Shown here: piece by piece, positions 14,826-62,795 of the stretch
Layout: each line of letters begins with the position of its first letter
Position numbering within the stretch: the stretch's first letter is position 1
DNA from: a virus
Length of the DNA: 62,795 nt
IMG/VR virus record: IMGVR_UViG_3300027754_000090
Location: 1 to 62,795 of that record
Direction: 5' to 3' (one strand)
Notes under the pieces: generated by a model
Told to the model about the DNA's origin: nothing
Database searches by the model: none
What the model saw: the letters and a program-made list of their open reading frames with translations, nothing else
Translations under genes and position numbers: made by a program

Positions 14826-16581
14826 GATAAGTGAAGTAGACATCGGTGATTTCGTACTAGCATGTAACATCAAAACGCAAACTGACGTATATAGAAGTGT
14901 CCTAAACACCATGCGTCCTGTTGTGGAATCCCATGATCAAGTGGAAATTATTGCCGAAAACGGAGCTACGCTGGTTACGAGTACCACACATCCTACTGCG
15001 ATTAATGATGGTTCTGAAATCAAGTATGTTAAGGGTGGCGACATAACAACAGACGATTATGTAGTTTCTATCCAAAACAAAAAAATAAAAGTAAGGACTG
15101 TCAACAAACCAAATGTTAACACCCAGTATGCGGATTTTAGTATAGACGAACATGAAAATTACTATGCCGGTAGAGATCCAAACAACTTATTATTAGCACA
15201 TAATAGTGCTACACTGTATTACCCCATCTGGCACCTGGAAGTGGAAGACCTGCTGGTGCTGAAGAACAACAAGGGCACTGAAGATAATCGCATTCGTCAC
15301 ATGGATTATGGTGTGCAATTCAACAAACTGATGTATGAGCGGTTACTGGGTGGTGGCAATATCACATTGTTCAGTCCCAGTGATGTGCCAGGGCTGTATG
15401 ATGCTTTCTTTGCTGATACTGACCAGTTCACTAAATTGTATGAAGCTGCTGAGGCCAATCCAGCAATTCGCAAGAAGACCATCAAAGCCGCAGATCTGTT
15501 CAGCCAGTTTGCGCAGGAACGCAAGGATACTGGCCGCATCTATCTACAGAATGTGGATCATGCCAATAGCCATAGCCCGTTTAAGTCTGACATTGCTCCT
15601 ATTCGCCAAAGTAATTTGTGCGCCGAGATAGACCTCCCCACCAAACCACTGAACGAAGTCAATGATCCTGATGGTGAAATCGCACTGTGTACCCTGTCAG
15701 CCATCAACTGGGGCATGATACTGGACCCTGCTGACTTTGCCAAACCCTGTGAACTGGCAGTGCGTGGTCTGGATGCCCTGCTGACATACCAGCATTATCC
15801 AGTACCAGCGGCCAAAAACAGCACTGATTTATACCGCCCACTGGGTATTGGCATCATCAATTTCGCCTACTGGCTAGCCAAGAACGGGTATACTTATACC
15901 AACAGTACCTGTTTACCAGCCGTGGATGAATACATGGAAGCCATGAGTTATTATCTGATCAAAACCAGCATAACACTGGCCCAGGAATTTGGGCCCTGCG
16001 CTGGCTGGCAAAATCTTAAATATGCTGATGGTGTGTTGCCAGTGGATACTCGCAAATCCGATGTGGATGATCTGGTACCCTATACCGAGAGAATGCCCTG
16101 GGACCTGCTGAGGAATCAGGTGGTTAAAACTGGCATTCGCAATGCCACGCTGATGGCACTGATGCCCAGTGAAACCAGTAGTCAGGTCAGCAACAGCACC
16201 AATGGTATCGAACCAGTGCGCAGTCTGATCACTACTAAGCAGAGCAAGCATGGTGTGCTGAAGCAGGTGGTTCCAGAGTTCCGCAAGCTCAAGAACAAAT
16301 ACGAGTTACTGTGGAATCAACGCAGTCCCGAAGGATATTTGCGCATCTGTGCGGTGTTACAGAAATGGGTAGACCAGGGTATCAGCGTAAACACCAGTTA
16401 TAACCCGCGTTTTTATGCTGAGGAAAAGATCCCCATGAGTGAGATGTTGAAGCATATCCTAATGTTTTACAAGCTGGGTGGCAAACAACTCTACTACAAT
16501 CAAACAAATGATAACCAGGGCGAGATCAATATGGACAAGATAACTGATCCGGTTGACGCCTGTGACAGTTGTGTTTTATAA
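14800..16581 (+). CDS. nrdA: Split-intein C fragment fused to ribonucleotide reductase large subunit, C-terminal part
   Basis: 593 residues from GTG 14800. Residues 1-135 are the intein C fragment: ISEVDIGDFVLACNIKTQTD, TSTTHPTAI (block B His), GGDITTDDYVV, and the C-terminal LLLAHN before Ser+1 (codon 15205). Residues 136-593 are NrdA: LYYPIWHLEVEDLLVLKNNK, NLCAEI, the second active-site Cys in ALCTLSAINWG, PSETSSQ, and the C-terminal redox pair CDSC (…DACDSCVL). It reduces ribonucleotides with NrdB. The intein split lies very early (61 residues plus 135 residues), like atypically split phage inteins. Confidence 0.9.
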   Translation: MKFLSKNVKISEVDIGDFVLACNIKTQTDVYRSVLNTMRPVVESHDQVEIIAENGATLVTSTTHPTAINDGSEIKYVKGGDITTDDYVVSIQNKKIKVRTVNKPNVNTQYADFSIDEHENYYAGRDPNNLLLAHNSATLYYPIWHLEVEDLLVLKNNKGTEDNRIRHMDYGVQFNKLMYERLLGGGNITLFSPSDVPGLYDAFFADTDQFTKLYEAAEANPAIRKKTIKAADLFSQFAQERKDTGRIYLQNVDHANSHSPFKSDIAPIRQSNLCAEIDLPTKPLNEVNDPDGEIALCTLSAINWGMILDPADFAKPCELAVRGLDALLTYQHYPVPAAKNSTDLYRPLGIGIINFAYWLAKNGYTYTNSTCLPAVDEYMEAMSYYLIKTSITLAQEFGPCAGWQNLKYADGVLPVDTRKSDVDDLVPYTERMPWDLLRNQVVKTGIRNATLMALMPSETSSQVSNSTNGIEPVRSLITTKQSKHGVLKQVVPEFRKLKNKYELLWNQRSPEGYLRICAVLQKWVDQGISVNTSYNPRFYAEEKIPMSEMLKHILMFYKLGGKQLYYNQTNDNQGEINMDKITDPVDACDSCVL

Positions 16582-20139: not shown

Positions 20140-20168
20140 GTTGTTGAAAACACTGGACAATCTTTTGG

Positions 20169-20197
20169 TTGACTCTGATCACACCGTTTGCTATAAT
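20169..20197 (+). promoter_or_regulatory. Early-type promoter with conserved upstream block
   Basis: TTGACT, 17-bp spacer, TATAAT (20192-20197), followed by AGTTGAGTAGGGGAAAACACACA. Preceded at 20141-20160 by TTGTTGAAAACACTGGACAA, a block repeated before several promoters at 38-42 kb. Confidence 0.9.
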
Positions 20198-20220
20198 AGT
20201 TGAGTAGGGGAAAACACACA

Positions 20221-20454
20221 ATGTCAACTCAGCGTCCAGACTATCACACTCAGATCTCACGGGAGGCTCGCAAGGCTTATCGCGCACATGAAGCCGAGGC
20301 CTGTGTGTACTATGCAGAGTGCCTGGGCTATAGTGCCTGCGTCAGCTGGGAGACTTTTCGGGGCAGTTGGGCTTACGATGCATGGCGCTGTGATCACCAA
20401 ATTCAGATTGCTGCTCAGCAGGCTGAGTTTCAACGATTCAGTTTCATGGCTTGA
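20221..20454 (+). CDS. Small unknown early protein
   Basis: 77 residues, rich in Tyr, Trp, Ala and Cys (AYRAHEAEACVYYAECLGYS). Transcribed from the strong promoter at 20169 with GTAGGGGAA as the possible ribosome site. No family recognised. The next promoter overlaps its last codons. Confidence 0.6.
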   Translation: MSTQRPDYHTQISREARKAYRAHEAEACVYYAECLGYSACVSWETFRGSWAYDAWRCDHQIQIAAQQAEFQRFSFMA

Positions 20455-23792: not shown

Positions 23793-26759
23793 ATGGCTCT
23801 GCAACTAAGTATCTCTGGTAATCCTAACTTTTATGTTGGTTCATTTGGTACTGTGACCATCTCTAACGGACCAGCTAACGCCACTGTTTATGTGACTTTA
23901 TATAGTCAGAAGGGTACTTCCACTCAATCTTATCCCCTCAACAGCAACGGCTATTTACAGTTCAGTGGCCCAGCCTGGACTGACTCCGATGCTGGTACTT
24001 ATACAGTACAGGCTTGCGTTGGGACTGATTGTGCTAGTTATACCTTTACAGTTAGTTCTAGACCCGTGGTAACGGCAACGCCGACGATAACGACATCTGG
24101 CGTAACATCACCTTCGCTAAATACAACACCAATTACGGTGACAACAGCTCTGTACACTACCAGCGTGAGTTTAAGTGCTCCCGGCGGCAACTATCTGGGC
24201 AGTTCCTTTACTGTGACGGTGCGTGGAAAACCCAATGCCCGCGTCACCGCTGGTATCACCAGTAGTCCTAGAAATGCATACAATGGAGCTGCCATATTTC
24301 AAGGTACAACCAACAATTCCGGTGTATTGTATGTGACTGGCAGTTGGCCGAATGATCCCGGATGGGTGGGGTCATGGAGTGAACCCTGGTATGTAGAAGG
24401 TTCAACGCAGGCTACATTAACATTTAGTATAGAGTATCCGCCACAGCCAACTCCAACTCCGCCTCCACCTCCGAGCTACACCACCAGAGTGCGTTTTTTA
24501 ACCAGTGACTTTTATGTAGGCAGCTCATATACAGTGGAGGTTACTGGCCGACCGAATTCAGACGTCACTGCTGTCATCGCCAGTAGTCCTAACAACGCAT
24601 TCAATGCGGCTGCTGTAAAGATGGGTACAACCAACAATCAGGGTGTATTTAATATTTCTGGCTCTTGGCCGAATGATAACACCTGGCTAGGATATTGGAG
24701 TGAAAACTGGTCTGTAGCGGGGTCAACGACTGCACAATTAAACTTCACTTTAACTACTAAGCCCGTGATACTGGAGCCCACATACAACACCAATGTGGGA
24801 TTTTCACCCACCCCAGACTTTTATGTAGGCAGCTCATATACTGTGCGGGTTACTGGCAAACCTAATTCCGCCGTCACTGCTAACATCGCCAGTAGTCCTA
24901 ACAGCGCATTCAATGCGGGTGCTTTACTGATGGGTACAACCGACAATCGGGGGGTATTTACTAAACCTGGCTCTTGGCCGAATGCTAACACCTGGATAGG
25001 GAATTGGAGTGAATACTGGTCTGTAACAGGGTCAACGACTGCACAATTAAACTTCACTTTAGCTGCTAAGCCCATCGTGCTTCCGCCCGATCCGCCCATA
25101 CCAGCACCAGTGTCTGGTAACATTCAGCTTACCCTGAATCAGAATCAGCAGGCTGTGGCGTTTACATATCCTGGCACCGTGGTCAGTCCAGGAACTATAA
25201 CTGGAGTGCAACGAAATAACGGACCATCGCATGGTAATATTGCTCAGGTCAGTGGAATAAATTATACTTATACTCCCTTCACTGATTATTCTGGAACTGA
25301 TCAGATAGCATTCAGGTTGGTTGGTGCTGGTGGCGTAAGTGATAAAACGGGCTATGTGAACATCCAGGTGGATGCACTGCCTATAGTAGTCAGACCCAAC
25401 TCTTTTACGTTCAGTAATTATTCCAATCAGATCAGCAATACCGCAGTCACTGGTAGCTCAGTGACGCTGAGCTCAGCTTTTCCAAATACCTACACTTTGG
25501 AATTAAATTGTGTTGCTGACTCGGACGGTAGCAGCAGCACCACAGCGTTGAATGCCAGTTATGTCACAGGCTGGACACGCAATCGTGGTGGCAACATCCA
25601 GAATTTAAGCAACAGCATCACGGTACTAGCTGGTGATATTGTGACGCCAGTGGTGCGGTCAGCACCAGGATCGCCGATAGCTGTGCGAACACTGACATTC
25701 ACAGTAAAACTCACTGGCAGCAATGTTGATGCAGGTTATATTTACAGCACCAACTTCACAGTGAGTACAGAAGTGGTTGATTTGGTGCCTGATGTCTTGG
25801 TACTGTATGGTGCAACCAATCTGGAACTCAGTTCAGCCTTCACCACCAACACCGTGACTGTTGGTGGATTAACTTCTGGGTTTCCAGTGCCCATAGCAGT
25901 CAGTCCCACAGCCAACTTAATCATTGGGGGTATTGATGCTGGTGATTCCAGTACCATCAGCAATGGACAGACCCTGGCTGTTCGTGCTAATAGTTCGGCT
26001 GACTTCAGCACTGGTAAACAATACACGGTTACTGTGACCGGAACCAACAGCAGCAACAATGCCGTGCTGAATCGGAATTACTTCACACTAACCACCAGAA
26101 ATCCCCATGTGGGACCCAGTGCTCCGTGGTATTTTGGTAACCAAGTGGGATTGAATCCCAGCACAATGTACGACACTGGTTCCGTGACATTCAGTGGCAT
26201 GGAAGAGTCTGCGATTTTCAGTATCAACAACGGTGGGTTAGTGGTAGTCAATAACAACACTGGCGCCGCCGCTGCCAGTGCCACCATCAATAATGGTGAC
26301 ACAGTGTATTTCCGAGCCAGTTCGGCCAGCACGTTCAGCACACAGGCAATATACACCGTAACTCTCAGCGCACTGAATGTACTTAATCAGACCGACAGCT
26401 TCAGCTATACCACCAGAGACAGCGTCAATACACCCACATTTAGTGGTGTATTCGCCACATTAACTCAGGCTGAACTCAGCAGCGTGGTGGTCAGCAATAC
26501 CATCACTGCCACTCAATTTGACGGCACGCAAACCATCACATTGAGCAGCAATTTGGCCAATCCTCAGCTAGTGATCAATGGCGTACCAAGTGGTACTAGC
26601 GCCAGCATTTCTAGTGGAAAATTTTTGGCCATCAGTGGAACAACCCCAGCTGATTATTATCAGCAGGCCAGCGCCACAGTGACGGTGAGTGCTGCCACAC
26701 TAAACTGGGCAGTAGTAACCAAAAGCAACGATGATCTACAGATACTAAATGCGTATTAA
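23793..26759 (+). CDS. Large multi-domain adhesin-like virion protein (Ig-like repeats)
   Basis: 988 residues, beta-rich. Three homologous units of about 105 residues near 125-440 share FYVGSSYTVxVTGxPNS, ASSPNxAFNA, GSWPNDxTW and WSVxGSTTAQLNF. A cadherin-like segment (TYTPFTDYSGTDQIAFRLV, about 490) and further Ig-like Ser/Thr/Asn-rich units complete it. No signal peptide. By context (fibre gene directly upstream, late promoter) it is a virion surface protein that probably binds host glycans. Confidence 0.8.
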   Translation: MALQLSISGNPNFYVGSFGTVTISNGPANATVYVTLYSQKGTSTQSYPLNSNGYLQFSGPAWTDSDAGTYTVQACVGTDCASYTFTVSSRPVVTATPTITTSGVTSPSLNTTPITVTTALYTTSVSLSAPGGNYLGSSFTVTVRGKPNARVTAGITSSPRNAYNGAAIFQGTTNNSGVLYVTGSWPNDPGWVGSWSEPWYVEGSTQATLTFSIEYPPQPTPTPPPPPSYTTRVRFLTSDFYVGSSYTVEVTGRPNSDVTAVIASSPNNAFNAAAVKMGTTNNQGVFNISGSWPNDNTWLGYWSENWSVAGSTTAQLNFTLTTKPVILEPTYNTNVGFSPTPDFYVGSSYTVRVTGKPNSAVTANIASSPNSAFNAGALLMGTTDNRGVFTKPGSWPNANTWIGNWSEYWSVTGSTTAQLNFTLAAKPIVLPPDPPIPAPVSGNIQLTLNQNQQAVAFTYPGTVVSPGTITGVQRNNGPSHGNIAQVSGINYTYTPFTDYSGTDQIAFRLVGAGGVSDKTGYVNIQVDALPIVVRPNSFTFSNYSNQISNTAVTGSSVTLSSAFPNTYTLELNCVADSDGSSSTTALNASYVTGWTRNRGGNIQNLSNSITVLAGDIVTPVVRSAPGSPIAVRTLTFTVKLTGSNVDAGYIYSTNFTVSTEVVDLVPDVLVLYGATNLELSSAFTTNTVTVGGLTSGFPVPIAVSPTANLIIGGIDAGDSSTISNGQTLAVRANSSADFSTGKQYTVTVTGTNSSNNAVLNRNYFTLTTRNPHVGPSAPWYFGNQVGLNPSTMYDTGSVTFSGMEESAIFSINNGGLVVVNNNTGAAAASATINNGDTVYFRASSASTFSTQAIYTVTLSALNVLNQTDSFSYTTRDSVNTPTFSGVFATLTQAELSSVVVSNTITATQFDGTQTITLSSNLANPQLVINGVPSGTSASISSGKFLAISGTTPADYYQQASATVTVSAATLNWAVVTKSNDDLQILNAY

Positions 26760-38235: not shown

Positions 38236-38574
38236 ATGACTATCAACACAGATACTTATCTCAGAGGTGCTGATCTCAGAGGTGCTCTCCTCATATGTGC
38301 AGACCTCAGTGGTGCAGACCTCAGTGGTGCAGACCTCAGATTTGCAGACCTCAGTGGCACTGACCTCACTGGTGCAGACCTCACTGGTGCAGACCTCACT
38401 GGTGCAGACCTCAGTGGTGCTGACCTCAGGGAAACCAAGTTCTCCGCAGATCAGGTGATGTGGATGACTTTATCTGGGCAGATCACACCCGATCAAGCTA
38501 GCCAGTGTAAAGTGCAGGAAACACAAGACAATCTCAGGGTTGACACTGCTCAGATCATTTGCTATACTAGCTGA
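38236..38574 (+). CDS. Pentapeptide-repeat protein
   Basis: 112 residues. About 15 A(D)LSG/A(D)LTG pentapeptides form a predicted right-handed beta-helix, followed by a tail MWMTLSGQITPDQASQCKVQ shared with the protein at 39865. Pentapeptide proteins can mimic DNA (gyrase inhibitors), but the function here is unknown. The DNA shows a 15-bp repeat near GGTGCAGACCTCA. Its last codons overlap the next promoter. Confidence 0.75.
   Translation: MTINTDTYLRGADLRGALLICADLSGADLSGADLRFADLSGTDLTGADLTGADLTGADLSGADLRETKFSADQVMWMTLSGQITPDQASQCKVQETQDNLRVDTAQIICYTS
38540..38568 (+). promoter_or_regulatory. Early-type promoter inside gene end
   Basis: TTGACA (38540-38545), 17-bp spacer, TATACT (38563-38568), then AGCTGAGTAG. 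It overlaps the last codons of the pentapeptide gene. Confidence 0.87.
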
Positions 38575-38607
38575 GTAGCAGAAATACACACAGGAGAAAA
38601 AATCATT

Positions 38608-39630: not shown

Positions 39631-39860
39631 AAGATCTGTTGAACCAACCGCTGGATGTGGGTGATTCTGTGATCAACGTCATCCAACCCACGAGGTGGGA
39701 AGGTGTGAATATTGGCACTGTGCTCAAGTTCACTTTTGACCACAAAGTCCAAGTGGGCTGGCCATTGGGCTGGCCCAGTGATGGGCTCTGTCTGCCCAGC
39801 AGTTTGCTGAAGTTGATGCCCGAACAACTGACGTGGTACTTTATCACGAAAACACCATAA
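39627..39860 (+). CDS. Small unknown protein
   Basis: 77 residues from GTG 39627, which overlaps the preceding TGA; AGGAGG lies about 5 nt upstream. Beta-rich (VGDSVINVIQPTRWEGVNIG), perhaps an SH3-like barrel. Confidence 0.58.
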   Translation: MKDLLNQPLDVGDSVINVIQPTRWEGVNIGTVLKFTFDHKVQVGWPLGWPSDGLCLPSSLLKLMPEQLTWYFITKTP

Positions 39861-39864
39861 TTAT

Positions 39865-40272
39865 ATGATCATAAACGGGTACACTATCGCACCAGGTAAC
39901 GATCTCAGAGATGCTGACCTCAGAAATTCTAGCCTCAGGCGTGTTGACCTCAAGGGTGCAGACCTCAAGGGTGCAGACCTCAGGGGTGCAGACCTCAGGG
40001 GTGCAGACCTCAGGGGTGCAGACCTCAGGGGTGCAGACCTCAGTGGTACAAACCTCAGGGGTGCAGACCTCATGGGTGCAGACCTCATGGGTGCAGACCT
40101 CAGTGCTGCAGACCTCAGTGGTGCAGACCTCAGAATTGCTTGGTTCTGGGAAACCAAGGTCACAGCAGACCAGTTGATGTGGTTGACTTTATCTGGGCAG
40201 ATCACACCCGATCAAGCTAGCCGTTGTAAAGTGTTGAAAACCAAGGACAAACAAATGGTTGACGCGGCATAG
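39865..40272 (+). CDS. Pentapeptide-repeat protein
   Basis: 135 residues. Start MIINGYTIAPGNDLRDADLR, then about 17 ADLRG/ADLSG units, then the tail QLMWLTLSGQITPDQASRCK as in the 38236 product. Perfect 15-bp DNA tandem repeats (GGGGTGCAGACCTCA) near 39990-40060 show recent unit expansion. Its end again overlaps a promoter. Confidence 0.78.
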   Translation: MIINGYTIAPGNDLRDADLRNSSLRRVDLKGADLKGADLRGADLRGADLRGADLRGADLSGTNLRGADLMGADLMGADLSAADLSGADLRIAWFWETKVTADQLMWLTLSGQITPDQASRCKVLKTKDKQMVDAA

Positions 40273-40287
40273 ACCGTTTGCTATCAT
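40259..40287 (+). promoter_or_regulatory. Early-type promoter
   Basis: TTGACG, 17-bp spacer, TATCAT (40282-40287), then AGTTGAGTAAGG. Confidence 0.83.
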
Positions 40288-40310
40288 AGTTGAGTAAGGA
40301 GAAAATACAC

Positions 40311-40664
40311 ATGATGATCAAAGTGATGACACCCGGACGCAAACGAGGTGGCGTGGAATATCCGCCCACATCCACTGAATACACTGTGGACATTGTGGTG
40401 GGCCGCAGCATTGAGATTTATTGCCAGCGCAAAGATCTCAGCATGGTAGCCGGTTCTGCGTTTGAGATTGGCGACACTGCGGAATACGACAGTTACAATC
40501 TCAGCTACACTGGCGAGATCACCAAGATCACTGACAAGGCTGTAACCATTAAGAAATATGGCACTTCACACCGCCTAAATTTGAATGAATTCTGTTGGCG
40601 TAATCACAACTTCAATGCAGCCGAAACCGCTGCCCGCAATGCCGAAACATCTATGTATATCTAA
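40311..40664 (+). CDS. Unknown early protein
   Basis: 117 residues (ATG 40311, or 40314). TAAGGAG ribosome site. Beta-rich central part (EIGDTAEYDSYNLSYTGEIT) like an SH3/OB-type barrel, then a helical Ala/Asn-rich end. No family recognised. Confidence 0.6.
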   Translation: MMIKVMTPGRKRGGVEYPPTSTEYTVDIVVGRSIEIYCQRKDLSMVAGSAFEIGDTAEYDSYNLSYTGEITKITDKAVTIKKYGTSHRLNLNEFCWRNHNFNAAETAARNAETSMYI

Positions 40665-41984: not shown

Positions 41985-42013
41985 CCTGTTGAAAACACTG
42001 GCAAAACATTTGG

Positions 42014-42042
42014 TTGACACTGACCAGACCATTTGCTATACT
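42014..42042 (+). promoter_or_regulatory. Early-type promoter (best consensus copy)
   Basis: TTGACA, 17-bp spacer CTGACCAGACCATTTGC-like, TATACT (42037-42042), then AGTTGAGTAGGGGAAAACAC as at 20169. Confidence 0.9.
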
Positions 42043-42071
42043 AGTTGAGTAGGGGAAAACACACAAACAAC

Positions 42072-52329: not shown

Positions 52330-53448
52330 ATGCGCTATTACGAACTAATAACTGAAGACTACAAATCAGTCACTAAGAAATTCATTGATGCTGGAGCTGA
52401 CTCAGCCGAGGTCAAAAAGTATATTGACCAGTTTAAGGCATTGGGTACTAAATTAAACAATATTACAGACCCAGCTGATAAAAACATTGATGTCTGGGGT
52501 AAGCGATCATTTGCTGACTTCAAGAAATTTGTCACTGATATCGGCACTCAGGTTACCCCGAGCAGCCAGAAGAAAGATGCTGGCACCAGTATTGATATCA
52601 CAACACCAAAACAAAAAGCAGCTGGGTGGAATATAATTATTCCCACTGACGAGTCTGCCAGTTGTTATCACGGCACTGGTACCGATTGGTGTGTGAGTAA
52701 ACGCAATCAAGGCCATTTTGAGGACTATTTTCTAGACAACAACGTCACACTGGTATTCTGTCTGAATGATCAGCAAGAAAAATGGGCTATTGCCAGTCAT
52801 GTCGACCTAGGCGATAAATCTGAGTTCTTTACCGCCAAAGATAAATCACTAACCCAGGAGAAATTCGACTCTGCTACTGGATTAAATTCTGCAGAGATAA
52901 TTAAATCTGCTCTGAGTCATGCTGGCGTGGAGCCAGCTCGTGCTGAGGCCAAACTGGCCAGTATTCCACATCTGATCCGCAAAGCCCTGACCCCAGACCC
53001 AGCCCTGGAGAAAAAAATTCTAGCTACCAAGAATGCCAAGTGGATGTATCAGTATACCCTGAATGTGCTGAAAGCACCATGGCCAGCTGCTGAGCCAGTG
53101 ATTGCTCAGAACGCTGGGTGGGCATTCTGGTATGCCTGTTTTGTGCTGAAAGCGCCATTTCCAGCTGGTGAACCAGCGATTGCTCAGAACGCTGATTGGG
53201 CATACTCATATGCCAAGGCTGTGCTGAAAGCACCATGGCCAGCTGCTGAGCCAGTGATTGCTCAGAATGCAGAGCGGGCATATTATTATGCCCTGGATGT
53301 GCTGAAAGCGCCATTTCCAGCTGGTGAACCAGCGATTGCTCAGAACGCTCAGTTGGCATACAAATATGCCCAGTATATGCTGAAAGATCCCAAACCCAAC
53401 ACCTGGCGTAAACGGTACTTGGCTCAGCAGAAAAAAATTCAGAAATAA
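52330..53448 (+). CDS. Phage protein with helical repeats (about 35 aa), unknown function
   Basis: 372 residues. The N-terminal part has MRYYELITEDYKSV (typical of T4-like unknown proteins) and a domain with ASCYHGTGTDWCVSKRNQGH and TLVFCLNDQQEKWAIAS, seen in other phage proteins. From about 230, four or five units of WAYxYAxxVLKAPWPAAEPV / IAQNA form an alpha-solenoid like DUF4116-type repeats. The stop codon lies in a 46-bp direct repeat that also occurs upstream of the gene. Confidence 0.7.
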   Translation: MRYYELITEDYKSVTKKFIDAGADSAEVKKYIDQFKALGTKLNNITDPADKNIDVWGKRSFADFKKFVTDIGTQVTPSSQKKDAGTSIDITTPKQKAAGWNIIIPTDESASCYHGTGTDWCVSKRNQGHFEDYFLDNNVTLVFCLNDQQEKWAIASHVDLGDKSEFFTAKDKSLTQEKFDSATGLNSAEIIKSALSHAGVEPARAEAKLASIPHLIRKALTPDPALEKKILATKNAKWMYQYTLNVLKAPWPAAEPVIAQNAGWAFWYACFVLKAPFPAGEPAIAQNADWAYSYAKAVLKAPWPAAEPVIAQNAERAYYYALDVLKAPFPAGEPAIAQNAQLAYKYAQYMLKDPKPNTWRKRYLAQQKKIQK

Positions 53449-53728: not shown

Positions 53729-53804
53729 GGGCTTGTAGCTCAATTGGGAGAGCGCCTGATTTGCATTCAGGAGGTAGCCGGATCGTAGCCGGCCAGGTCC
53801 ACCA
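53729..53804 (+). tRNA. tRNA-Ala (TGC)
   Basis: Acceptor GGGCTTG/CAGGTCC with wobble pairs, anticodon stem CCTGA/TCAGG, loop TTTGCAT, CCA encoded. T loop ATCGTAG deviates from TTCRANY. Confidence 0.88.
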
Positions 53805-53813
53805 TGAAGTTTT

Positions 53814-53903
53814 GGTAGTGTGGGTGAGTGGTTAAAACCATCAGACTGTAAATCTGACGCTCCTCGTAGAGCTTCGTTGGTTCAAATCCAACCGCTACCA
53901 CCA
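53814..53903 (+). tRNA. tRNA-Tyr (GTA)
   Basis: Class II with long variable arm as expected; acceptor GGTAGTG/CGCTACC, loop CTGTAAA, CCA encoded. Confidence 0.93.
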
Positions 53904-53913
53904 AGTTTTTAAA

Positions 53914-54008
53914 GGTTCGTGAGGTCGTTTAGTAATGGTAAGACCAGGGCATATATCAAATGCCAGTTTAAAGCTAACTGATGCGGATTCCGTCCTCACA
54001 ACGAAGCA
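53914..54008 (+). tRNA. tRNA-like sequence, identity unresolved
   Basis: D-arm-like GGTCGTTTAGTAATGGTAAG, anticodon-arm-like GGCAT-ATATCAA-ATGCC, a long variable-arm-like AGTT-TAAAG-CTAACT, and outer pairing GTGAGG/CCTCAC. T arm and acceptor do not fit cleanly, so this may be a degenerate or odd class-II tRNA. Confidence 0.4.
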
Positions 54009-54066
54009 ACTTAACGGTGGTAATATGTTTAAACCGGCAGCGTGGTGCAAGGCCACAACAGTTTAT

Positions 54067-54142
54067 CGCGGTGTAGAGCAGTAGTAGCTCGCTTGGCTCA
54101 TAACCAAGAGGTCGATGTGTGCAAATCCATCCACCGCAACCA
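54067..54142 (+). tRNA. Initiator tRNA-fMet (CAT)
   Basis: CGCGGTG paired to CACCGCA leaves a C1-A72 mismatch, the hallmark of bacterial initiator tRNA, and the body (GTAGAGCAG, GTAGCTCG) tracks E. coli fMet. The anticodon stem is CTTGG/CCAAG, so only two of the three usual G-C pairs are present. CCA encoded. Confidence 0.88.
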
Positions 54143-54147
54143 ATTTT

Positions 54148-54229
54148 CAGCAATTGATTACTAACCTGGGTATGTGCCAGCCAGGGAAACCCACTAAATT
54201 AGGTGGATGAGTGCTGGTGCCAATTGCTG
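54148..54229 (+). ncRNA. Candidate structured RNA within tRNA cluster
   Basis: 82 nt closed by a 9-bp perfect stem CAGCAATTG/CAATTGCTG. Inside, CCTGG/CCAGG and CCAC/GTGG hairpins. Size is tRNA-like but the arms do not make a tRNA and no anticodon is evident. Confidence 0.45.
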
Positions 54230-54240
54230 GATTAAGTTAT

Positions 54241-54315
54241 GAGGTGTTAGTGGAGTGGTTATCACGCTGCCCTTTCAAGGCGGAATCAGGGGTTCAAATC
54301 CCCTACACCTTACCA
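54241..54315 (+). tRNA. tRNA-Glu (TTC)
   Basis: Acceptor GAGGTGT/ACACCTT, anticodon loop CTTTCAA, T arm AGGGG-TTCAAAT-CCCCT, CCA encoded. Confidence 0.92.
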
Positions 54316-54325
54316 AAGTTTTATG

Positions 54326-54401
54326 TGGGCCTTACTCGAGTGGTTTCAGAGGACTGACTGTGACTCAGTTTACAGGGGTTCAAATCCCCTAGGTCCAACC
54401 A
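54326..54401 (+). tRNA. tRNA-His (GTG)
   Basis: Acceptor TGGGCCT/AGGTCCA, anticodon loop CTGTGAC, CCA encoded. Discriminator is A rather than the usual C opposite G-1. Confidence 0.9.
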
Positions 54402-54413
54402 AAGATTAATTTT

Positions 54414-54485
54414 TCTTGAGTAGCTCAATGGCAGAGCGTTCGGCTGTTAACCGAAATGTTGTAGGTTCGAATCCTACCTCAGGAG
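54414..54485 (+). tRNA. tRNA-Asn (GTT)
   Basis: Acceptor TCTTGAG/CTCAGGA, anticodon loop CTGTTAA, standard T arm; CCA not encoded. Confidence 0.92.
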
Positions 54486-54489
54486 CAAC

Positions 54490-54526
54490 GAGGGGCGAAG
54501 TACTTGGTATTCCAAACTTCGCCCTC
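54490..54526 (+). other. Hairpin between tRNAs
   Basis: About 10-bp stem GGGGCGAAGT / ACTTCGCCCT with a 14-nt loop; possible processing signal between tRNA-Asn and tRNA-Gln. The following 45 nt hold nothing recognised. Confidence 0.45.
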
Positions 54527-54570
54527 TTATAAAGTTCATGTGGGTAATCGGTAAATGCATTAAAGTTTTT

Positions 54571-54646
54571 AGCCGGATAGCTCAATTGGCGGAGCGTCTG
54601 ACTCTGACTCAGAAGGTTCTTGGTTCGACTCCAAGTCCGGCTGCCA
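54571..54646 (+). tRNA. tRNA-Gln (CTG)
   Basis: Acceptor AGCCGGA/TCCGGCT, anticodon stem TCTGA/TCAGA, loop CTCTGAC, discriminator G, CCA encoded. Confidence 0.92.
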
Positions 54647-54653
54647 AAGTTTT

Positions 54654-54727
54654 ATCAGCGTAGTGTAACGGTAGCACGACAGTCTCCAAAACTGTTTGTC
54701 CGGGTTCAAATCCTGGCGCTGGTGCCA
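54654..54727 (+). tRNA. tRNA-Trp (CCA)
   Basis: Acceptor ATCAGCG/CGCTGGT, anticodon loop CTCCAAA, discriminator G, 3' CCA encoded. Confidence 0.92.
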
Positions 54728-54736
54728 AAGTTTTTC

Positions 54737-54812
54737 GGCCGGTTAGCTCAGCGGTTAGAGCATCTCGTTTACACCGAGAGGGTCCGGGGTTCAAATCCCT
54801 GACCGGTCACCA
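54737..54812 (+). tRNA. tRNA-Val (TAC)
   Basis: Acceptor GGCCGGT/ACCGGTC, anticodon stem TCTCG/CGAGA, loop TTTACAC, 3' CCA encoded. Confidence 0.93.
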
Positions 54813-54821
54813 TAAGTTTAT

Positions 54822-54898
54822 CGGGATGTGGGCTAAAGGTTAGCCGCCTGTTTTGGGAACAGGACATCGAGTGAGTTCGATTCTCACCATCCCGACCA
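54822..54898 (+). tRNA. tRNA-Pro (TGG)
   Basis: Acceptor CGGGATG/CATCCCG, anticodon loop TTTGGGA, 3' CCA encoded. Confidence 0.93.
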
Positions 54899-55025
54899 CA
54901 GTTCGGAGCAGATAGACAGAAGGTCGTAGCTTGGTGAAGCCCAGGATACGGACGCTGGAACACAGATGCCACGCCCAACGTATACAGGGACAGCAGTGAA
55001 ATCCTTAACTCCAAGGCCTTTTTTT
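54899..55025 (+). other. Non-coding spacer within the tRNA cluster, unassigned
   Basis: 127 nt between tRNA-Pro and tRNA-Met with no reading frame. It contains GGAG near 54905 and CTCC near 55009, ATACG/CGTAT pairing, and ends in a T7 run. It may be a decayed tRNA or small RNA, but no known fold is clear. Confidence 0.35.
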
Positions 55026-55102
55026 AGGTGTGTAGCTTAGTTGGCCAAAGTGTCTGTTTCATACGCAGAAGATCGTGGGTTCGACTCCCATCACACCTAC
55101 CA
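55026..55102 (+). tRNA. tRNA-Met (CAT), elongator, or Ile2
   Basis: Acceptor AGGTGTG/CACACCT fully paired, anticodon loop TTCATAC, CCA encoded. Full pairing at 1-72 excludes an initiator. CAT could be Met or, if the C is lysidine-modified, Ile. Confidence 0.88.
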
Positions 55103-55111
55103 GTACATTTT

Positions 55112-55185
55112 GGTTCCGTAAGTTAATGGTAAACTAGCTCACTGTCTATGAGCATTCGAGGGTTCGATTCCCTTCGGGACCGCCA
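55112..55185 (+). tRNA. tRNA-Asp (GTC)
   Basis: Acceptor GGTTCCG/CGGGACC, anticodon stem GCTCA/TGAGC, loop CTGTCTA, CCA encoded. Confidence 0.92.
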
Positions 55186-55193
55186 TATTTTTA

Positions 55194-55269
55194 GGCTGTT
55201 AAGCTAACCTGGTGGAAGCGCCTGTTTGAAGCACAGGAAGGCGGGGTTCGATTCCCCGAGCAGCCACCA
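55194..55269 (+). tRNA. tRNA-Phe (GAA)
   Basis: Acceptor GGCTGTT/AGCAGCC, anticodon stem CCTGT/ACAGG, loop TTGAAGC, CCA encoded. Confidence 0.92.
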
Positions 55270-55270
55270 T

Positions 55271-55347
55271 GCCCTGATAGCTCATTTTGGTAGAGCGCTT
55301 GATTAGTAATCATGAGGTGATCGGTTCGAACCCGATTCGGGGCTCCA
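55271..55347 (+). tRNA. tRNA-Thr (AGT)
   Basis: Acceptor GCCCTGA/TCGGGGC, Thr-like body, discriminator T, CCA encoded. Loop TTAGTAA gives A at wobble position 34, rare in bacteria; one T-T mismatch in the anticodon stem. Confidence 0.82.
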
Positions 55348-55354
55348 AACTTAT

Positions 55355-55430
55355 TGACCTGTAACTCAGTTGGCAGAGTGCTGTGCTGATAACGCAGAAG
55401 TCGTTGGTTCAACTCCAACCAGGTCAACCA
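55355..55430 (+). tRNA. tRNA-Ile (GAT)
   Basis: Acceptor TGACCTG/CAGGTCA, anticodon stem CTGTG/CGCAG, loop CTGATAA, CCA encoded. Confidence 0.92.
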
Positions 55431-55472
55431 AGTATGCTGAAATAGTGAAGTTCTTGAAGGCACCACAAGTTT

Positions 55473-55547
55473 GATCTCGTAACTCAGCGGTAGAGTATCG
55501 ATCTTTTAAATCGAGAGCCGTGGGTTCAAATCCCGCCGGGGTCACCA
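55473..55547 (+). tRNA. tRNA-Lys (TTT)
   Basis: Acceptor GATCTCG/CGGGGTC with wobble pairs, anticodon loop CTTTTAA, CCA encoded. Last tRNA of the cluster. Confidence 0.92.
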
Positions 55548-56699: not shown

Positions 56700-58064
56700 A
56701 TGAGTTATCCCAGAAATGTATTTTCCAATCGTGCAATGGATCGGCGAACTTTGCTGCGTGGAGTGGGAGCAGCCATGGCCATACCCTTACTGGATTCCAT
56801 GTCACCAGTGATAGCTGCTCAGCCAGCTGATACACGTCCAGTGAGACTGGCGTTCTGTTATGTGCCCAATGGTATCATCCCTGGCGACTGGCTGCCCAGC
56901 ACCACTGGTCAGAACTTTGACTTCCGCCCCACCATGCGCCCACTAAAAGCACATCGTGATGATATGTTGGTACTCAGCAACTTAGCTCAGCTAAATGGTC
57001 GCGCACTGGGTGACGGTGCTGGTGATCATGCGCGTGCGGGTGCCACATGGCTAACTGGAGTACATCCCAAGAAAACCGAAGGTGCAGATATTCTGGCTGG
57101 GATCTCAGCAGATCAGATTGCAGCCAGACATCACGAAAAACAAACTCAGTTCGGTTCACTGGAACTGGGCTTGGAAGAACCTTTTCTGGCTGGTGGTTGT
57201 GATTCTGGATACAGTTGTGCCTACACCAATACACTGTCCTGGCGTGGACCCACTATGCCCAATCCAGTACAGGTGAATCCTCGTGAAATCTTTGAACGGT
57301 TATTTGGTGACAGTGACACCACTGACCCCACTGCGAGACTGCATCGCATGGCACAGGACCGCAGTGTGCTGGACTTTGTTCGTGCTGATGCTTATAAATT
57401 GCGTACTGGTCTGGGAATACGTGATCAGCAAAAGCTGGAAGAATATCTGGCATCTGTGCGTGATATTGAGCGTCGTATTCAGAAAGCCGAACATCAAGCA
57501 GCCACCATAGCGATGCCCAGCATAGTTCGCCCAGTGGGCATTCCTGACAGCTTTGAAGATCACGCCAAAATCATGGCAGATCTCATGGTCATTGCCTTCC
57601 AGACCGACATGACCCGCGTCATCACTTTCATGATGGCTCGTGAAGGCAGCAACCGCAGCTACCGCGAAATAGGTATCAGCGATGGTCACCACTCAGTTAC
57701 TCACCACCAGAACGATCCTGAAAAGATTGCCAAGACCCAGAAGATCAACGAGCACCACGTCAAGAGCTTCGCTTATCTGGTGCAGCGCATGAAGGAAACG
57801 CAGGACGGCGATGCCAGCTTGCTGGACCGCACATTGTTGCTATATGGCAGCAGTATCCGCGAAGGCAACGTCCACGACCACCACGATCTTCCCCTGGTGC
57901 TGGTGGGCGGCAAGGCCACTGGCATACAGGGTGGACGACATATCCGATACAAGGATGAGACTCCCATGAACAACCTGCTGATCACTATGCTGGCTAAGTC
58001 AGGTGTTGCGGTGGAATCACTGGGTGACGCCAATGGTCATATTGATCAGCTGAGCGGAGTGTGA
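56700..58064 (+). CDS. DUF1552 family protein with Tat-type signal
   Basis: 454 residues, full family length. Twin-arginine-like signal DRRTLLRGVGAAMAIPLLDS (about 14-33). Then LAFCYVPNGIIPGDWLP, GDHARAGATWLTGVHPKKTE, SRSYREIG-like NRSYREIGISDGHHSVTHH, LLYGSSIREGNVHDHHDLPL, VLVGGKATGIQGGRHIR. DUF1552 belongs to an alkaline-phosphatase-like/DUF1501-related group, common in Planctomycetes, Verrucomicrobia and relatives beside DUF1592/DUF1588 genes. Host-derived by inference; its role in a phage is unknown. Late promoter and GAGGAG site. Confidence 0.88.
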   Translation: MSYPRNVFSNRAMDRRTLLRGVGAAMAIPLLDSMSPVIAAQPADTRPVRLAFCYVPNGIIPGDWLPSTTGQNFDFRPTMRPLKAHRDDMLVLSNLAQLNGRALGDGAGDHARAGATWLTGVHPKKTEGADILAGISADQIAARHHEKQTQFGSLELGLEEPFLAGGCDSGYSCAYTNTLSWRGPTMPNPVQVNPREIFERLFGDSDTTDPTARLHRMAQDRSVLDFVRADAYKLRTGLGIRDQQKLEEYLASVRDIERRIQKAEHQAATIAMPSIVRPVGIPDSFEDHAKIMADLMVIAFQTDMTRVITFMMAREGSNRSYREIGISDGHHSVTHHQNDPEKIAKTQKINEHHVKSFAYLVQRMKETQDGDASLLDRTLLLYGSSIREGNVHDHHDLPLVLVGGKATGIQGGRHIRYKDETPMNNLLITMLAKSGVAVESLGDANGHIDQLSGV

Positions 58065-58068
58065 TCAC

Positions 58069-58422
58069 ATGAGCAAGCTGTCAGATCTGATTTATCGCAC
58101 AGAAACTCGTGAGCTGACCCAGTGGGTGGCTGATATTCACATGGACACCACCGACGGCGAACATTATGTGCTCACGGCTGGCCCCAGGCTCAATGCTGGT
58201 CTTGCCCAGGTGGTCAGCAGCTCAGACATTGCTGAAATTTATATTACACTCAGCACGGAGTACTTGGTCACCAATCAGGGTAAAATATTACCCAGATCCC
58301 AAATTACTCAGACACAAGTGTTGAACCGTGCTGCGTTGACCAGCTGGAGTCGGCGTGTTTGGTTTAATTGGTACCCCAGTCGCTGGCGCAGAAATATTGA
58401 CAAGCCCAGTGATGTTTGCTAG
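58069..58422 (+). CDS. Unknown protein
   Basis: 117 residues, 4 nt after the DUF1552 gene. ETRELTQWVADIHMDTTDGE; C-terminus basic and Trp-rich (SWSRRVWFNWYPSRWRRN). No family recognised. The promoter of the following RNA overlaps its end. Confidence 0.58.
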   Translation: MSKLSDLIYRTETRELTQWVADIHMDTTDGEHYVLTAGPRLNAGLAQVVSSSDIAEIYITLSTEYLVTNQGKILPRSQITQTQVLNRAALTSWSRRVWFNWYPSRWRRNIDKPSDVC

Positions 58423-58425
58423 ACT
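58397..58425 (+). promoter_or_regulatory. Early-type promoter of the 396-nt RNA
   Basis: TTGACA (58397-58402), 17-bp spacer, TAGACT (58420-58425) preceded by TTTGC. The position 6 nt beyond the -10 is 58432, the first base of the RNA's closing stem. Confidence 0.82.
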
Positions 58426-58431
58426 AGTAAA

Positions 58432-58827
58432 GTGACAGGGTGGAGGTGGGCCTATAAGCAGCCATCCTTTAAAGAGTAGATGTTGGACTGTGATCAGCGT
58501 GTTGAGTAAGCTTGCCTTGTGGCTACAACGAAACCAGTGTTAATTCACTGGTGAATACAGCAGGGTCGGATAATGTTGTGTAACCCTTAATATTGGGCCC
58601 CCTGTAACCAATCAGACCCAAGAATAATCTGGGTTGACGCGGACATAATGAATTCGCGTTCCCCTGAGGGCACTGATAACAGATCATGGAGACGACCCGG
58701 CAGAAATACAGAATTAGCATCAAGACTGCGAACCGGAGAACCTAATTTTGATTTGATCTGACGACGAATCGTAGTTCATAGATAATTCTACCAGCATCTT
58801 TAAGCGTAACAGCACACACCCTGTCAC
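58432..58827 (+). ncRNA. Candidate large structured phage RNA (396 nt)
   Basis: An 11-bp closing stem pairs GTGACAGGGTG (58432-58442) with CACCCTGTCAC (58817-58827). Internal hairpins visible: CCAGTG-TTAATT-CACTGG, ACCCA-loop-TGGGT (near 58616), CGCG-loop-CGCG (near 58637), GATT-loop-AATC nested inside GAAC-loop-GTTC (near 58740-58785). No long reading frame; only a 15-codon GTG frame at the 5' end. It starts at the predicted promoter +1 and ends 7 nt before the phosphoesterase gene, so it could be a stand-alone RNA or a very long structured leader. I see no RNase P, tmRNA, group I intron, GOLLD or ROOL signature. Confidence 0.7.
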
Positions 58828-58834
58828 CTACAAA

Positions 58835-59380
58835 ATGAAACACTTTATTATATCGGATACTCACTTCAACCACACGAATATCATCAGATATTGTGATCGG
58901 CCGTTCAGCTCAGTATCTGCAATGAACGAGATGCTGATATACAACTGGAATGCCACAGTGGCACCAGATGACAATGTATGGCATCTGGGAGATATGGGAT
59001 TTGGTGATCTAACTGAATTTCGTCACCGGCTCAATGGCCACATACATTTGATCCAGGGCAATCATGACAACCATCGTACCTGGGGGACCTTTGAATTTGC
59101 CAGCAGACAGCCACATCAGTTACTGGACGCGGGCGGACTCAGAGTACTGTTGATTCATCATCCTATTCATCAGCCAGAGTATAAGTGTGTTGCACCCAAC
59201 CTGGATTATGATGTTTGTCTGTATGGTCATATTCATCAACGAGATCCAGGCTGGACCAGTGTGGGTGATCGTTGGTACCGTAATTGCAGTGTGGAGGTCA
59301 TGGATTATCGGCCACAACTGATCCAGGATGTACTGCAACCCAGACCCCTAAGTGACGACTCTGTCATTGTGATCAGCTGA
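58835..59380 (+). CDS. Metallophosphoesterase (calcineurin-like)
   Basis: 181 residues with all canonical motifs: IISDTHFNHTN (DxH), NVWHLGDMGFG (GD), IQGNHDNH (GNHD), LLIHHPIH (H) and LYGHIHQRD (GHxH). Phosphodiesterase or phosphatase, substrate unknown. It follows the 396-nt RNA by 7 nt and lacks a clear ribosome site, so expression may depend on the RNA. It has intact metal sites, unlike the 30596 protein. Confidence 0.9.
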   Translation: MKHFIISDTHFNHTNIIRYCDRPFSSVSAMNEMLIYNWNATVAPDDNVWHLGDMGFGDLTEFRHRLNGHIHLIQGNHDNHRTWGTFEFASRQPHQLLDAGGLRVLLIHHPIHQPEYKCVAPNLDYDVCLYGHIHQRDPGWTSVGDRWYRNCSVEVMDYRPQLIQDVLQPRPLSDDSVIVIS

Positions 59381-60021: not shown

Positions 60022-60199
60022 CACAGGGCAAACGCTGAGTGAAGATCTTTACTTACATGGTTAATAATAACCCAGGACTAAATGGCAGCAAAACTTTTTG
60101 CAGATTGGCTGGCCAGATCTCCCTGAGTTACTTATTGTTGCTGATTGTATATTGTTGGTTGTAGATTGTTTTGATCTTTCACACGGTGTTTGCCCTGTG
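60022..60199. ncRNA. Candidate structured RNA between convergent genes (178 nt)
   Basis: A 12-bp perfect closing stem CACAGGGCAAAC (60022-60033) / GTTTGCCCTGTG (60188-60199), extended by GTGAAGATC / GATCTTTCAC with one bulge, and an inner hairpin GCAAAA-CT-TTTTGC. No reading frame. Strand unknown since it lies between convergent genes. Confidence 0.55.
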
Positions 60200-60887: not shown

Positions 60888-62129
60888 ATGATCAACTTGA
60901 AATTCAGCATCATCACTCCCACCCACATTCGTAATAGTTTCTTATCTGAGCTGTATCTCAGTATACTGGCGCAGACTTATACCAATTGGCATTGGGTTAT
61001 CCTCCTCAACGGTGGTGCGGTCATTGACCAAGTACCTGCTGAAATCAGAGCTGATGCCAGAACAGAGATTCACATCACCACTGACACCAACAGCAATGTG
61101 GGACACATCAAGCGAGCAGCATTTCAGCTGGGCACTGGTGATGTACTGGTGGAAATGGATCACGATGATCTGCTGACACCAGATTGCTTGGCTGAGCTGA
61201 ATACGGCATTTCAGGATCCTGATGTAGGCTTTGTGTACAGTGATAATGCCAAGTATCACACTCAGGCTGAGTTTGAACCCTATGGAGCTTACTGGGGGTG
61301 GACACATCACAAACATCAGTGGCAGGACCATAGCCTGTATGTAATGGACAGCTTTGTGGCCAGCAGCCACAGTGTGGGGCAGATCTATTACGCACCAGAT
61401 CATGTCAGAGCCTGGAGAACCACAGTGTATCAGCAAGTGGGTGGGCATAATCCCGAGCTCAGCGTGTGTGATGATCAGGATCTGATAATCCGCACCTACT
61501 TACAAACCAGATTTGTTTATATTCCACAAGTACTGTACATCTATCGCATCACTGGCGACAACACCTGGCTGGCTCGCAATGAACAGATACAAACACTGAG
61601 TCAAGCAATATTTCGTCAGTATGCATGGCAACTGGCTGTGAGAGATGCTGAGCTGCGTGAGCTTATGATAGTGGATCTGGGTGGTGGCATTGACGCCAAG
61701 GCTGGCTGTGTGACTATTGACACCGCAGATGCTGATATCATTGCTGATCTCAATGCTGGTATTCCACTTCCGGATAACAGTGTGGGCGTGATCAATGCCA
61801 GTCATGTGCTGGAACATCTGCGAGATCCACTGTTTAGTATGCGAGAAATTCATCGTGTACTGGCTGATGGCGGCTGGGCTTTCATTGAAGTGCCCAGCAC
61901 TGATGGTCGTGGTGCGTGGCAGGATCCCACACATGTCAGCTACTGGAATCAGAACAGCTTTGGCTATTATACTCGCACAGACCGTGCCAGATATATTCGT
62001 AACACTGACATTCGTTTTCAAGAATTCAGACTGGAGACTCGGTGGTGGGAGGAAAATGTCGCGGTGGTGGATGCTTGGCTGGTGGCAGTGAAGTCGGATC
62101 AGCGTCGTCCTCACAAATTGACCATCTAG
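60888..62129 (+). CDS. Glycosyltransferase family 2 fused to SAM-dependent methyltransferase
   Basis: 413 residues. N-terminal GT2 domain (about 5-235): FSIITPTHIRNSFLSELYLS, LVEMDHDDLLTPDCL (the DxD), CDDQDLIIRTYL (catalytic Asp region). C-terminal Rossmann methyltransferase (about 260-405): MIVDLGGGIDAKAGCVTIDT, GVINASHVLEHLRDPLFSMR, GGWAFIEVPSTDGRG. May decorate phage DNA or a virion/host glycan. No promoter or clear ribosome site was identified. Confidence 0.87.
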   Translation: MINLKFSIITPTHIRNSFLSELYLSILAQTYTNWHWVILLNGGAVIDQVPAEIRADARTEIHITTDTNSNVGHIKRAAFQLGTGDVLVEMDHDDLLTPDCLAELNTAFQDPDVGFVYSDNAKYHTQAEFEPYGAYWGWTHHKHQWQDHSLYVMDSFVASSHSVGQIYYAPDHVRAWRTTVYQQVGGHNPELSVCDDQDLIIRTYLQTRFVYIPQVLYIYRITGDNTWLARNEQIQTLSQAIFRQYAWQLAVRDAELRELMIVDLGGGIDAKAGCVTIDTADADIIADLNAGIPLPDNSVGVINASHVLEHLRDPLFSMREIHRVLADGGWAFIEVPSTDGRGAWQDPTHVSYWNQNSFGYYTRTDRARYIRNTDIRFQEFRLETRWWEENVAVVDAWLVAVKSDQRRPHKLTI

Positions 62130-62325: not shown

Positions 62326-62484
62326 TTGGACAGTCTTACTGTTGAAGTGGTATATGATATGAACAGAGTCATGCACAGCATGATTCGCAAGAATTGTGAT
62401 CAAATCGAAGTCATGCGCCAGCAGATACTGGCACTGGAAAAACAAGTGGCGCAGTTGAATTCACAACTGACAGACACTGATTAG
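62326..62484 (+). CDS. Small coiled-coil protein
   Basis: 52 residues from TTG 62326 (ATG 62359 possible). Heptads in IEVMRQQILALEKQVAQLNS. End overlaps the next promoter. Confidence 0.52.
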   Translation: MDSLTVEVVYDMNRVMHSMIRKNCDQIEVMRQQILALEKQVAQLNSQLTDTD

Positions 62485-62499
62485 ACCATTTGCTATACT
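62471..62499 (+). promoter_or_regulatory. Early-type promoter for the last gene
   Basis: GACACTGATTAGACCATTTGC then TATACT (62494-62499), like the consensus copies; -35 is weak (CAGACA with 17-bp spacing). Confidence 0.68.
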
Positions 62500-62522
62500 G
62501 ATCAAGTGAGGTATTTAATAAG

Positions 62523-62795
62523 ATGATCGTCCGCGGATACACTATCGCAGCAGGTGCTCTCCTCATATGTGCAGACCTCAGGGGTGCAGACCTCAGGGGT
62601 GCAGACCTCAGGGGTGCAGACCTCAGGGGTGCAGACCTCAGTGGCACTGACCTCACTGGTGCAGAACTCACTGGTGCAGACCTCAGGGGTGCAGACCTCA
62701 GTGGCACTGACCTCACTGGTGCAGACCTCACTGGTGCAGAACTCAGGGGTGCAGAACTCGGTGTTGCAGACCTCAGGGGTGCAGACCTCAGGGGT
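62523..62795 (+). CDS. Pentapeptide-repeat protein (3' end outside window)
   Basis: At least 91 residues. Start MIVRGYTIAAGALLICADLR resembles the 39865 product and then runs in ADLRG/ADLSG/TDLTG units off the right edge. DNA shows the same 15-bp repeat; third family member in the window. Confidence 0.75.
   Translation, partial: MIVRGYTIAAGALLICADLRGADLRGADLRGADLRGADLSGTDLTGAELTGADLRGADLSGTDLTGADLTGAELRGAELGVADLRGADLRG

Follow-up and report, generated by a model that had tools for sequence, protein, structure and literature searches.

The GTPase-associated centre (GAC) of 23S rRNA (H42–H43–H44, E. coli 1051–1108) is the site of elongation-factor action and of thiostrepton binding, and the stringent response depends on L11 at this site. 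A 58-nt RNA of the E. coli GAC suffices to bind full-length L11 (PMC10161774), L11 is essential for the activation of RelA by starved ribosomes (PMC7058999), and A1067 is a determinant of resistance to thiostrepton, with thiopeptides that target the GAC being known (PMC5829649). Mimicry of rRNA has been described in the leaders of ribosomal-protein operons (uL1, uS8 and bL20), where sites in the mRNA imitate the rRNA site of the protein (PMC10931766), and the OLE RNA has been proposed to sequester the ribosomal protein bS21 (RpsU) by resembling its ribosomal pocket (PMC12286853). ROOL and GOLLD are large structured phage RNAs that have no known function and often lie near tRNA islands; they form RNA nanocages, and no rRNA mimicry is described for them in that source (PMC12286853).

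The phage RNA reported here is like ROOL and GOLLD in its size class, origin and setting, but they are longer, their Rfam models do not match it and no sequence is common to them and this RNA. In contrast to the OLE RNA it is viral rather than bacterial, concerns another protein and is unrelated in sequence, and, unlike the operon leaders, which are cis-regulatory and belong to the operon of the protein itself, it is a separate RNA that lies in tRNA arrays and imitates the GAC/uL11 site. It was found in a 62,795-base IMG/VR record of a tailed phage, the whole of which was analysed and is called the window below. An Rfam search of the window gave no match at 58432–58827, be it to ROOL, GOLLD, OLE or another family, which agrees with the original prediction that the RNA belongs to none of the large phage RNA classes; in its relatives, the Rfam matches were confined to tRNA, tmRNA, chance matches of low score and, below threshold, LSU rRNA. 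No description of such an RNA was found in the literature searched, which left out preprints and most subscription journals. The RNA may be an unrecognised class, for which priority is not certain, and its recurrence among the tRNA genes of many unrelated phages makes it look like an unrecognised means by which viruses exploit or disable host protein synthesis.

The RNA locus and its promoter

The window contains 21 tRNA genes as found by ARAGORN, 15 of which form an array at 53729–55547. Further along, 412 bases without an open frame separate ORF 58069–58422 from a phosphoesterase gene, and within them the RNA occupies 58432–58827, exactly 396 nt (Table 1). As had been predicted, this region holds no reading frame: stops occur in every frame, and the longest ORF, on the minus strand, has 66 aa.

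Table 1. Positions in the window of the promoter, the proposed RNA elements and the neighbouring gene, with E. coli 23S rRNA numbering where it applies.
Feature	Position	Strand	Remarks
Promoter	-35 TTGACA 58397–58402; -10 TAGACT 58420–58425	+	17-nt spacer; +1 expected at 58432
P1 5' strand (GTGACAGGGTG), H42 equivalent	58432–58442	+	58442 = G1055; same geometry as 23S H42
H43 mimic (AGGUGGGCCUAUAAGCAGCCAUCCU)	58444–58468	+	1057–1081; 58447 = U1060, 58454 = A1067
GAC linker (UUUAAAGAGU)	58468–58477	+	1081–1090; A1088 = 58475; pair U1082–A1086 = 58469/58473
Inserted arm, 326 nt	58478–58803	+	Between U1090 and G1091
P2 5' strand (AGAUGUUGG)	58478–58486	+	Closes the arm
P2 3' strand (CCAGCAUCU)	58791–58799	+	Followed by linker UUAA, 58800–58803
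H44 mimic (GCGUAACAGC)	58804–58813	+	1091–1100; 58807 = U1094, 58808 = A1095
ACAC	58814–58817	+	1101–1104; P1 3' begins with the C at 58817
P1 3' strand (CACCCTGTCAC)	58817–58827	+	Pairs with 58432–58442
Calcineurin-like phosphoesterase gene (Metallophos_2)	58835–59380	+	Neighbour outside the RNA; begins 7 nt past it

The closing stem P1 is perfect over 11 bp, and its first base, the seventh after the -10 box, is the expected +1; the stem with its 396-nt span and the placing of the expected start are borne out. None of 3000 dinucleotide shuffles of the region produced an 11-bp pair spanning over 300 nt; the whole window, however, holds 18 such repeats within 400 nt where about 6 are expected, and the closing stem by itself is therefore weak evidence. 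The folding energy of the 396 nt (-122.8 kcal/mol versus -103.3 kcal/mol in shuffles, z = -3.2) is likewise unremarkable taken alone, since 8 of 158 other 396-nt windows score better, although the minimum-energy fold of the RNA alone shows P1, H43, P2 and H44 as in the architecture of Table 1. Judged from sequence, it is homology, more than stem or energy, that makes the RNA real.

The promoter fits, with one mismatch, the phage's own motif TTGACA-N12-TTTGCTATACTAGT, which has 11 sites in the window against 0 expected, the other copies lying before protein genes and the tRNA array; the TAG of its -10 box doubles as the stop codon of ORF 58069–58422. Sites of this family include 19165, 20169, 38540, 42014, 53675 and 58397, often with AGTTGAGTA coming next, and two copies share a flank of about 80 bp (20142–20221 and 41987–42066, 89%). 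No terminator was found after P1 in the window; formation of the 3' end would thus call for processing, unless the RNA is coupled to the phosphoesterase mRNA. A promoter-like site also stands ahead of the related unit in phage XacN1, its end about 11 nt from P1, and this unit is followed directly by a GC-rich hairpin and a T-run.

Correspondence with the GTPase-associated centre

With the RNA as a blastn query no match was obtained at E up to 1e-5; at E up to 10, the segment 58428–58477 matched 23S rRNA (81% over 42 nt) and also intergenic DNA of the Pseudomonas phages UNO-G1W1, Astolliot and pf16. With its two ends, the RNA almost certainly rebuilds the GAC, a link to 23S rRNA that the original prediction missed. 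P1 (as H42), H43, the linker and H44 follow in the same order and with the same spacing as in 23S, and the 3' end of each phage unit consists of H44 (GCGUAAYAGC) and then a strand that pairs with the bases before H43, like H42 in 23S. In 23S, H44 comes directly after UUUAAAGAGU, whereas the phage RNAs have an arm at precisely that point, which breaks the 5' strand of H44.

The elements of the GAC fold are present: H43 with its conserved loop and the 1058–1080 pair, the H44 hairpin, and the tertiary signature, which we take to comprise the U1060–A1088 tertiary pair and the 1082–1086 pair. U1060, A1088, U1094 and A1095 are kept, and the covarying pairs are those of the 23S secondary structure. 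The phage RNA differs from the rRNA in being free-standing, in the P2-closed arm (27 to about 370 nt) that separates 1090 from 1091, in an H42 cut to a stem of varied sequence, in an A1067 that is not strictly kept, and at 1101–1104, where the UCAC of 23S is ACAC in nearly all phage copies, so that U1090 can pair with A1101. The window RNA is not part of a 23S rRNA, being intergenic in a phage and having 326 nt between H43 and H44. Six named genomes or MAGs were compared for host 23S; in one the match was not 23S, and in the other 5 of 5 the phage copy differed from the host GAC.

Profiles of H43 and H44 built with the window left out both pick out this RNA. The H43 profile scored 51.5 bits at it, while no other site in the window exceeded -17 and no shuffle -8.5, and the H44 profile, with the adjoining ACAC counted in, gave 26.0 bits at the top site in the window, with shuffles at 16.9 or less. 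Rfam LSU_rRNA models match further members at the GAC positions (for example, bacterial model 1084–1153, E 6.5e-6), below threshold.

Distribution and covariation

A scan of viral contigs with a 22-nt H43 seed gave 75 contigs, in none of whose matches H44 follows H43 directly as in 23S. The resulting set had 56 distinct sequences, isolates and the window included, and yielded 54 distinct units, of which CBB and the first copy in Astolliot were excluded from pair counts because they deviate in the H43–linker part. One entry of the phage collection, Pd_22F (Salmonella), is true 23S contamination, since it has no insert. Because this seed fixed part of H43, a second scan used the H44 side only (seed TTTRGCGTARYAGCACAC); among the matches listed, 95 of 99 new viral loci had an H43 mimic 36–370 nt upstream, and in three of the remaining four the fetched DNA stops less than 210 nt upstream. 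The architecture occurs in at least about 170 IMG/VR contigs, near-identical contigs being included in the contig and unit counts. The H44 pattern was also found in 29 contigs of bacterial and archaeal genomes, about 20 of which are units by the same test, on bacterial or MAG contigs.

Complete units occur in 12 isolated phages (pf16, UNO-G1W1, Astolliot, Milchi, 4_4572, XacN1, GAP32, CBB, BF, Kaldavass, SNUABM_12 and XbC2), with hosts in Pseudomonas, Aeromonas, Xanthomonas, Cronobacter, Pectobacterium, Erwinia and Serratia; another five SNUABM records from Erwinia, together with Vibrio 2.275.O and XaC1, gave H43 matches and are candidate members. Astolliot has two GAC mimics in tandem, which differ in arm type (L179, 2660–2977 and 2992–3172), and Milchi matches this whole tandem stretch at 89%. 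Two exact matches to the closing stem in viral contigs were chance, one lying inside a coding gene and the other being unrelated.

Covariation was assessed in a gap-free alignment of 49 distinct cores (78 columns, arms cut to the P2 ends). Pairing held in 94.9% of cells, with 304 double changes against 96.6 in shuffles and a covariation score of 0.631 against 0.159; sliding the partners by 1–3 columns lowered pairing to 35–59%. The covariation check that had been proposed for the closing stem came out in its favour, with double changes in all nine counted P1 pairs, as well as in 4 of 4 P2 pairs, and the 1058–1080 pair in H43 covaries as G-C, U-A and A-U. As P1 complementarity was one criterion for choosing H44 in this first set, its P1 pairing is partly selected; nearly all the H44 sites so chosen also have the ACAC tail.

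Residues were counted in 67 distinct gap-free units from the H44-seeded set, among the matches listed, for which the H43 seed was unused, H44 was fixed by the seed, and the H43 site was picked by profile score with a smaller weight on P1 pairing. U1060 is present in all 67 and A1088 in 66; 1058–1080 is paired in 67 of 67 with four Watson–Crick types, and 1082–1086 in 63 (UA 27, CG 23, AU 13), while 1064–1074 alternates between C-G and A-U and 1057–1081 between A-U and C-G. P2 has at least 3 bp in 59 of the 67, compared with about 22% with shuffled partners; in 50 of 52 units of the first set it directly adjoins U1090 at its 5' end and is separated from G1091 by four bases (UUUR, or UUAA in the window). 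A1067 is A in 52 and G in 11, being replaced in 15 of 67, so not all surfaces of the GAC are kept.

The compensatory changes together with the fixed tertiary residues indicate selection for the GAC fold, not drift. That the units are captured rRNA fragments drifting without function, or assembly chimeras, is scarcely credible: one mimic, in L296, still has a 23S-like H42, but the compensatory changes in P1, P2 and 1082–1086 contradict this explanation, compensation is also seen between related jumbo phages (UUUAAAG with an A-U pair in P1 in GAP32 versus AUAAUG with a G-C pair in BF), and true 23S contamination, as in Pd_22F, is recognisable. The L296 mimic, which lies on the minus strand from 6763 with P1 strands GACAGCCAGG...CACTGGCCGAG, is perhaps a recent capture from rRNA. 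What sequence and covariation together establish is the architecture with its preserved GAC tertiary signature, its occurrence across phages and in tRNA arrays, and the promoter sequences directly ahead of P1 in the window and XacN1.

tRNA arrays, arms and possible roles

The units lie mostly inside tRNA arrays. The fetched DNA of 106 of 147 units contains a tRNA. The nearest one always shares the strand of the unit (106 of 106), and its median distance is 15 nt, as against 516 nt for random points; the units of UNO-G1W1, Astolliot and pf16 are inside or beside arrays on the same strand. In two contigs, the RNA array with the GAC mimic also holds a phage tmRNA gene (L190, 2083–2433; L197, 4045–4349). 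Downstream of the homologues come tRNAs, often less than 100 nt away, hypothetical genes or a terminator, with no conserved downstream gene and no phosphoesterase in the annotated relatives. The phage core is conserved in relatives of the window reached through the phosphoesterase, ORF 117, the DnaB-like helicase and the glycosyltransferase; the region 58432–58827 and its RNA are absent from the fetched relatives of these four synteny genes.

The original prediction had offered a new RNA class or a long leader of the phosphoesterase gene; the structured RNA stands, perhaps as a new class, while the leader has become unlikely. A cis-acting leader that controls that gene in response to uL11 or some other ligand of the GAC would suit the 7 nt that separate P1 from the gene, which has no visible Shine–Dalgarno sequence, and ribosomal-protein operons do use rRNA mimicry in cis (uL1, uS8 and bL20; PMC10931766), but the tRNAs, terminator or unrelated genes that come after the relatives make it very improbable. 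From the tRNA-array setting and the promoters of its own, the RNA is probably made in the arrays and processed out or, as in the window, made from its own promoter, and does not fit a leader of one gene.

Arm length ranges from 27 to about 370 nt. Most arms show no relationship from one phage to another, but certain types recur. About 30 of 136 are of the pf16 type, with a GNRA-like hairpin and then GGUAAGG near the 3' end of the arm, and about 10 of 136 are of the AGACCC-GAG type (XacN1 and GAP32). The pf16-type hairpin, CC[CA]-GNRA-[TC]GG then UAAGG, has a covarying stem, lies 22 nt before the arm end and is a second conserved RNA motif. The window arm is an orphan, with no relative among the 136, so that its internal folding is a prediction from energy. 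Other parts of 23S were considered as a source of the arms and rejected, the best match of the 136 to 23S (E 0.007) being unconvincing; nor did this comparison bring up the sarcin–ricin loop, which forms the other half of the factor site.

The constant GAC platform with exchangeable arms, and the two arm types in the tandem copies of Astolliot, would suit a scaffold, in which the uL11-binding part is a handle tethering the arm, as the working part, to uL11 or to ribosomes. Against this, arms are nearly absent in L203 (27 nt) and L307 (36 nt), so that an arm is not always needed, and no partner of the arm is known; the scaffold is thus a possible reading, though hardly the expected one.

A GAC decoy might also be aimed at another ligand, namely a translational GTPase, a stringent factor, a GAC-binding antibiotic such as thiostrepton, or an antiphage defence of the host in the form of a nuclease or modification enzyme directed at the GAC; thiopeptides target the GAC, with A1067 as their key determinant (PMC5829649). 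The reproduction of the entire GAC, H43 and H44 loops included, would suit such a decoy. The mimics also sit in phage tRNA arrays, which are commonly thought to counter RNA-cleaving defences. The replacement of A1067 in 15 of 67 units and the lack of the sarcin–ricin loop in the arms (nothing below E 0.007 versus 23S) speak against it, as does the fact that we know of no defence aimed at the GAC, and we regard it as rather unlikely. With A1067 often replaced and the folding residues fixed, recognition of the fold, as by uL11, is favoured over recognition of the factor and antibiotic loop, and a decoy or anchor for uL11 is therefore proposed.

The RNA is probably a phage-encoded, trans-acting imitation of the 23S GAC, with a uL11 decoy or anchor as its most likely, though uncertain, purpose, and there is a good chance that it binds host uL11. 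P1 would act as H42, followed by copies of H43, the UUUAAAGAGU linker and H44, with the P2-closed arm in the 5' side of H44. Folding like the 58-nt GAC, the RNA would therefore capture host uL11 and serve as its decoy or anchor during infection. If uL11 were thereby kept off new 50S subunits, relC-like ribosomes unable to activate RelA might result, and phage translation would then continue without a stringent response; relaxation of this response is the most concrete consequence of the proposal, but as the purpose of the RNA it is a tentative and rather unlikely suggestion. The phage-specific arm may have a second function, for example in stabilising the RNA or in binding another partner. On balance, we lean slightly towards a modular viral GAC copy with an exchangeable arm that captures uL11 or a GAC-binding factor in trans and so alters host translation or the stringent response. 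uL11 is abundant, and its titration may need many copies of the RNA, which counts against a uL11 decoy, as do the break that the arm makes in H44, which uL11 may not tolerate, the variation at A1067 and the lack of a terminator after P1 in the window. Nor did the surroundings of the RNA reveal any gene, of the phage or for defence, with a link to L11 or RelA.

A widespread viral copy of the GAC would, if confirmed, be a new class of viral RNA in which a virus imitates a functional centre of the ribosome in RNA, would offer phages a direct way of acting on translation or (p)ppGpp signalling in the host, and would contribute to an explanation of what the RNA part of phage tRNA arrays does. The signature H43, P2, UUUR-GCGUARYAGCACAC, P1 would allow the class to be annotated in existing phage genomes, including that of the cultured Pseudomonas phage pf16.

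Several other features of the window were noted. Between the array tRNAs lie stretches that look structured and are not tRNAs by ARAGORN (53915–54060, 54150–54235, 54487–54530 and 54899–55025), examples among them being CAGCAATTG...CAATTGCTG and GAGGGGCGAAG...CTTCGCCCTC; a tRNA at 54067–54139 was found by Rfam and missed by ARAGORN. At 60022–60199, a perfect 12-bp inverted repeat (CACAGGGCAAAC/GTTTGCCCTGTG) encloses a 178-nt stretch between two convergent genes, which is not a GAC mimic. About 1 kb of the nrdA-like gene (14152–15198) is missing in relatives L003–L005, whose matches skip from 14151 to 15199, and the extra ORFs there point to an intein or homing element. Positions 56700–58064 encode a DUF1552 (HXXSHH) protein of full length (E 4e-104). 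The homologue of the glycosyltransferase–methyltransferase gene (60888–62129) adjoins the equivalent of 19.0 kb of the window in relatives L098–L101, and the gene has therefore moved. Repeat-rich stretches lie at 1–2626, 24192–25073, 38257–38590, 39858–40311, 53064–53386 and 62411–62795, with one repeat family common to those at 38.3, 39.9 and 62.5 kb and pentapeptide-like ORFs at 38191 and 39865.
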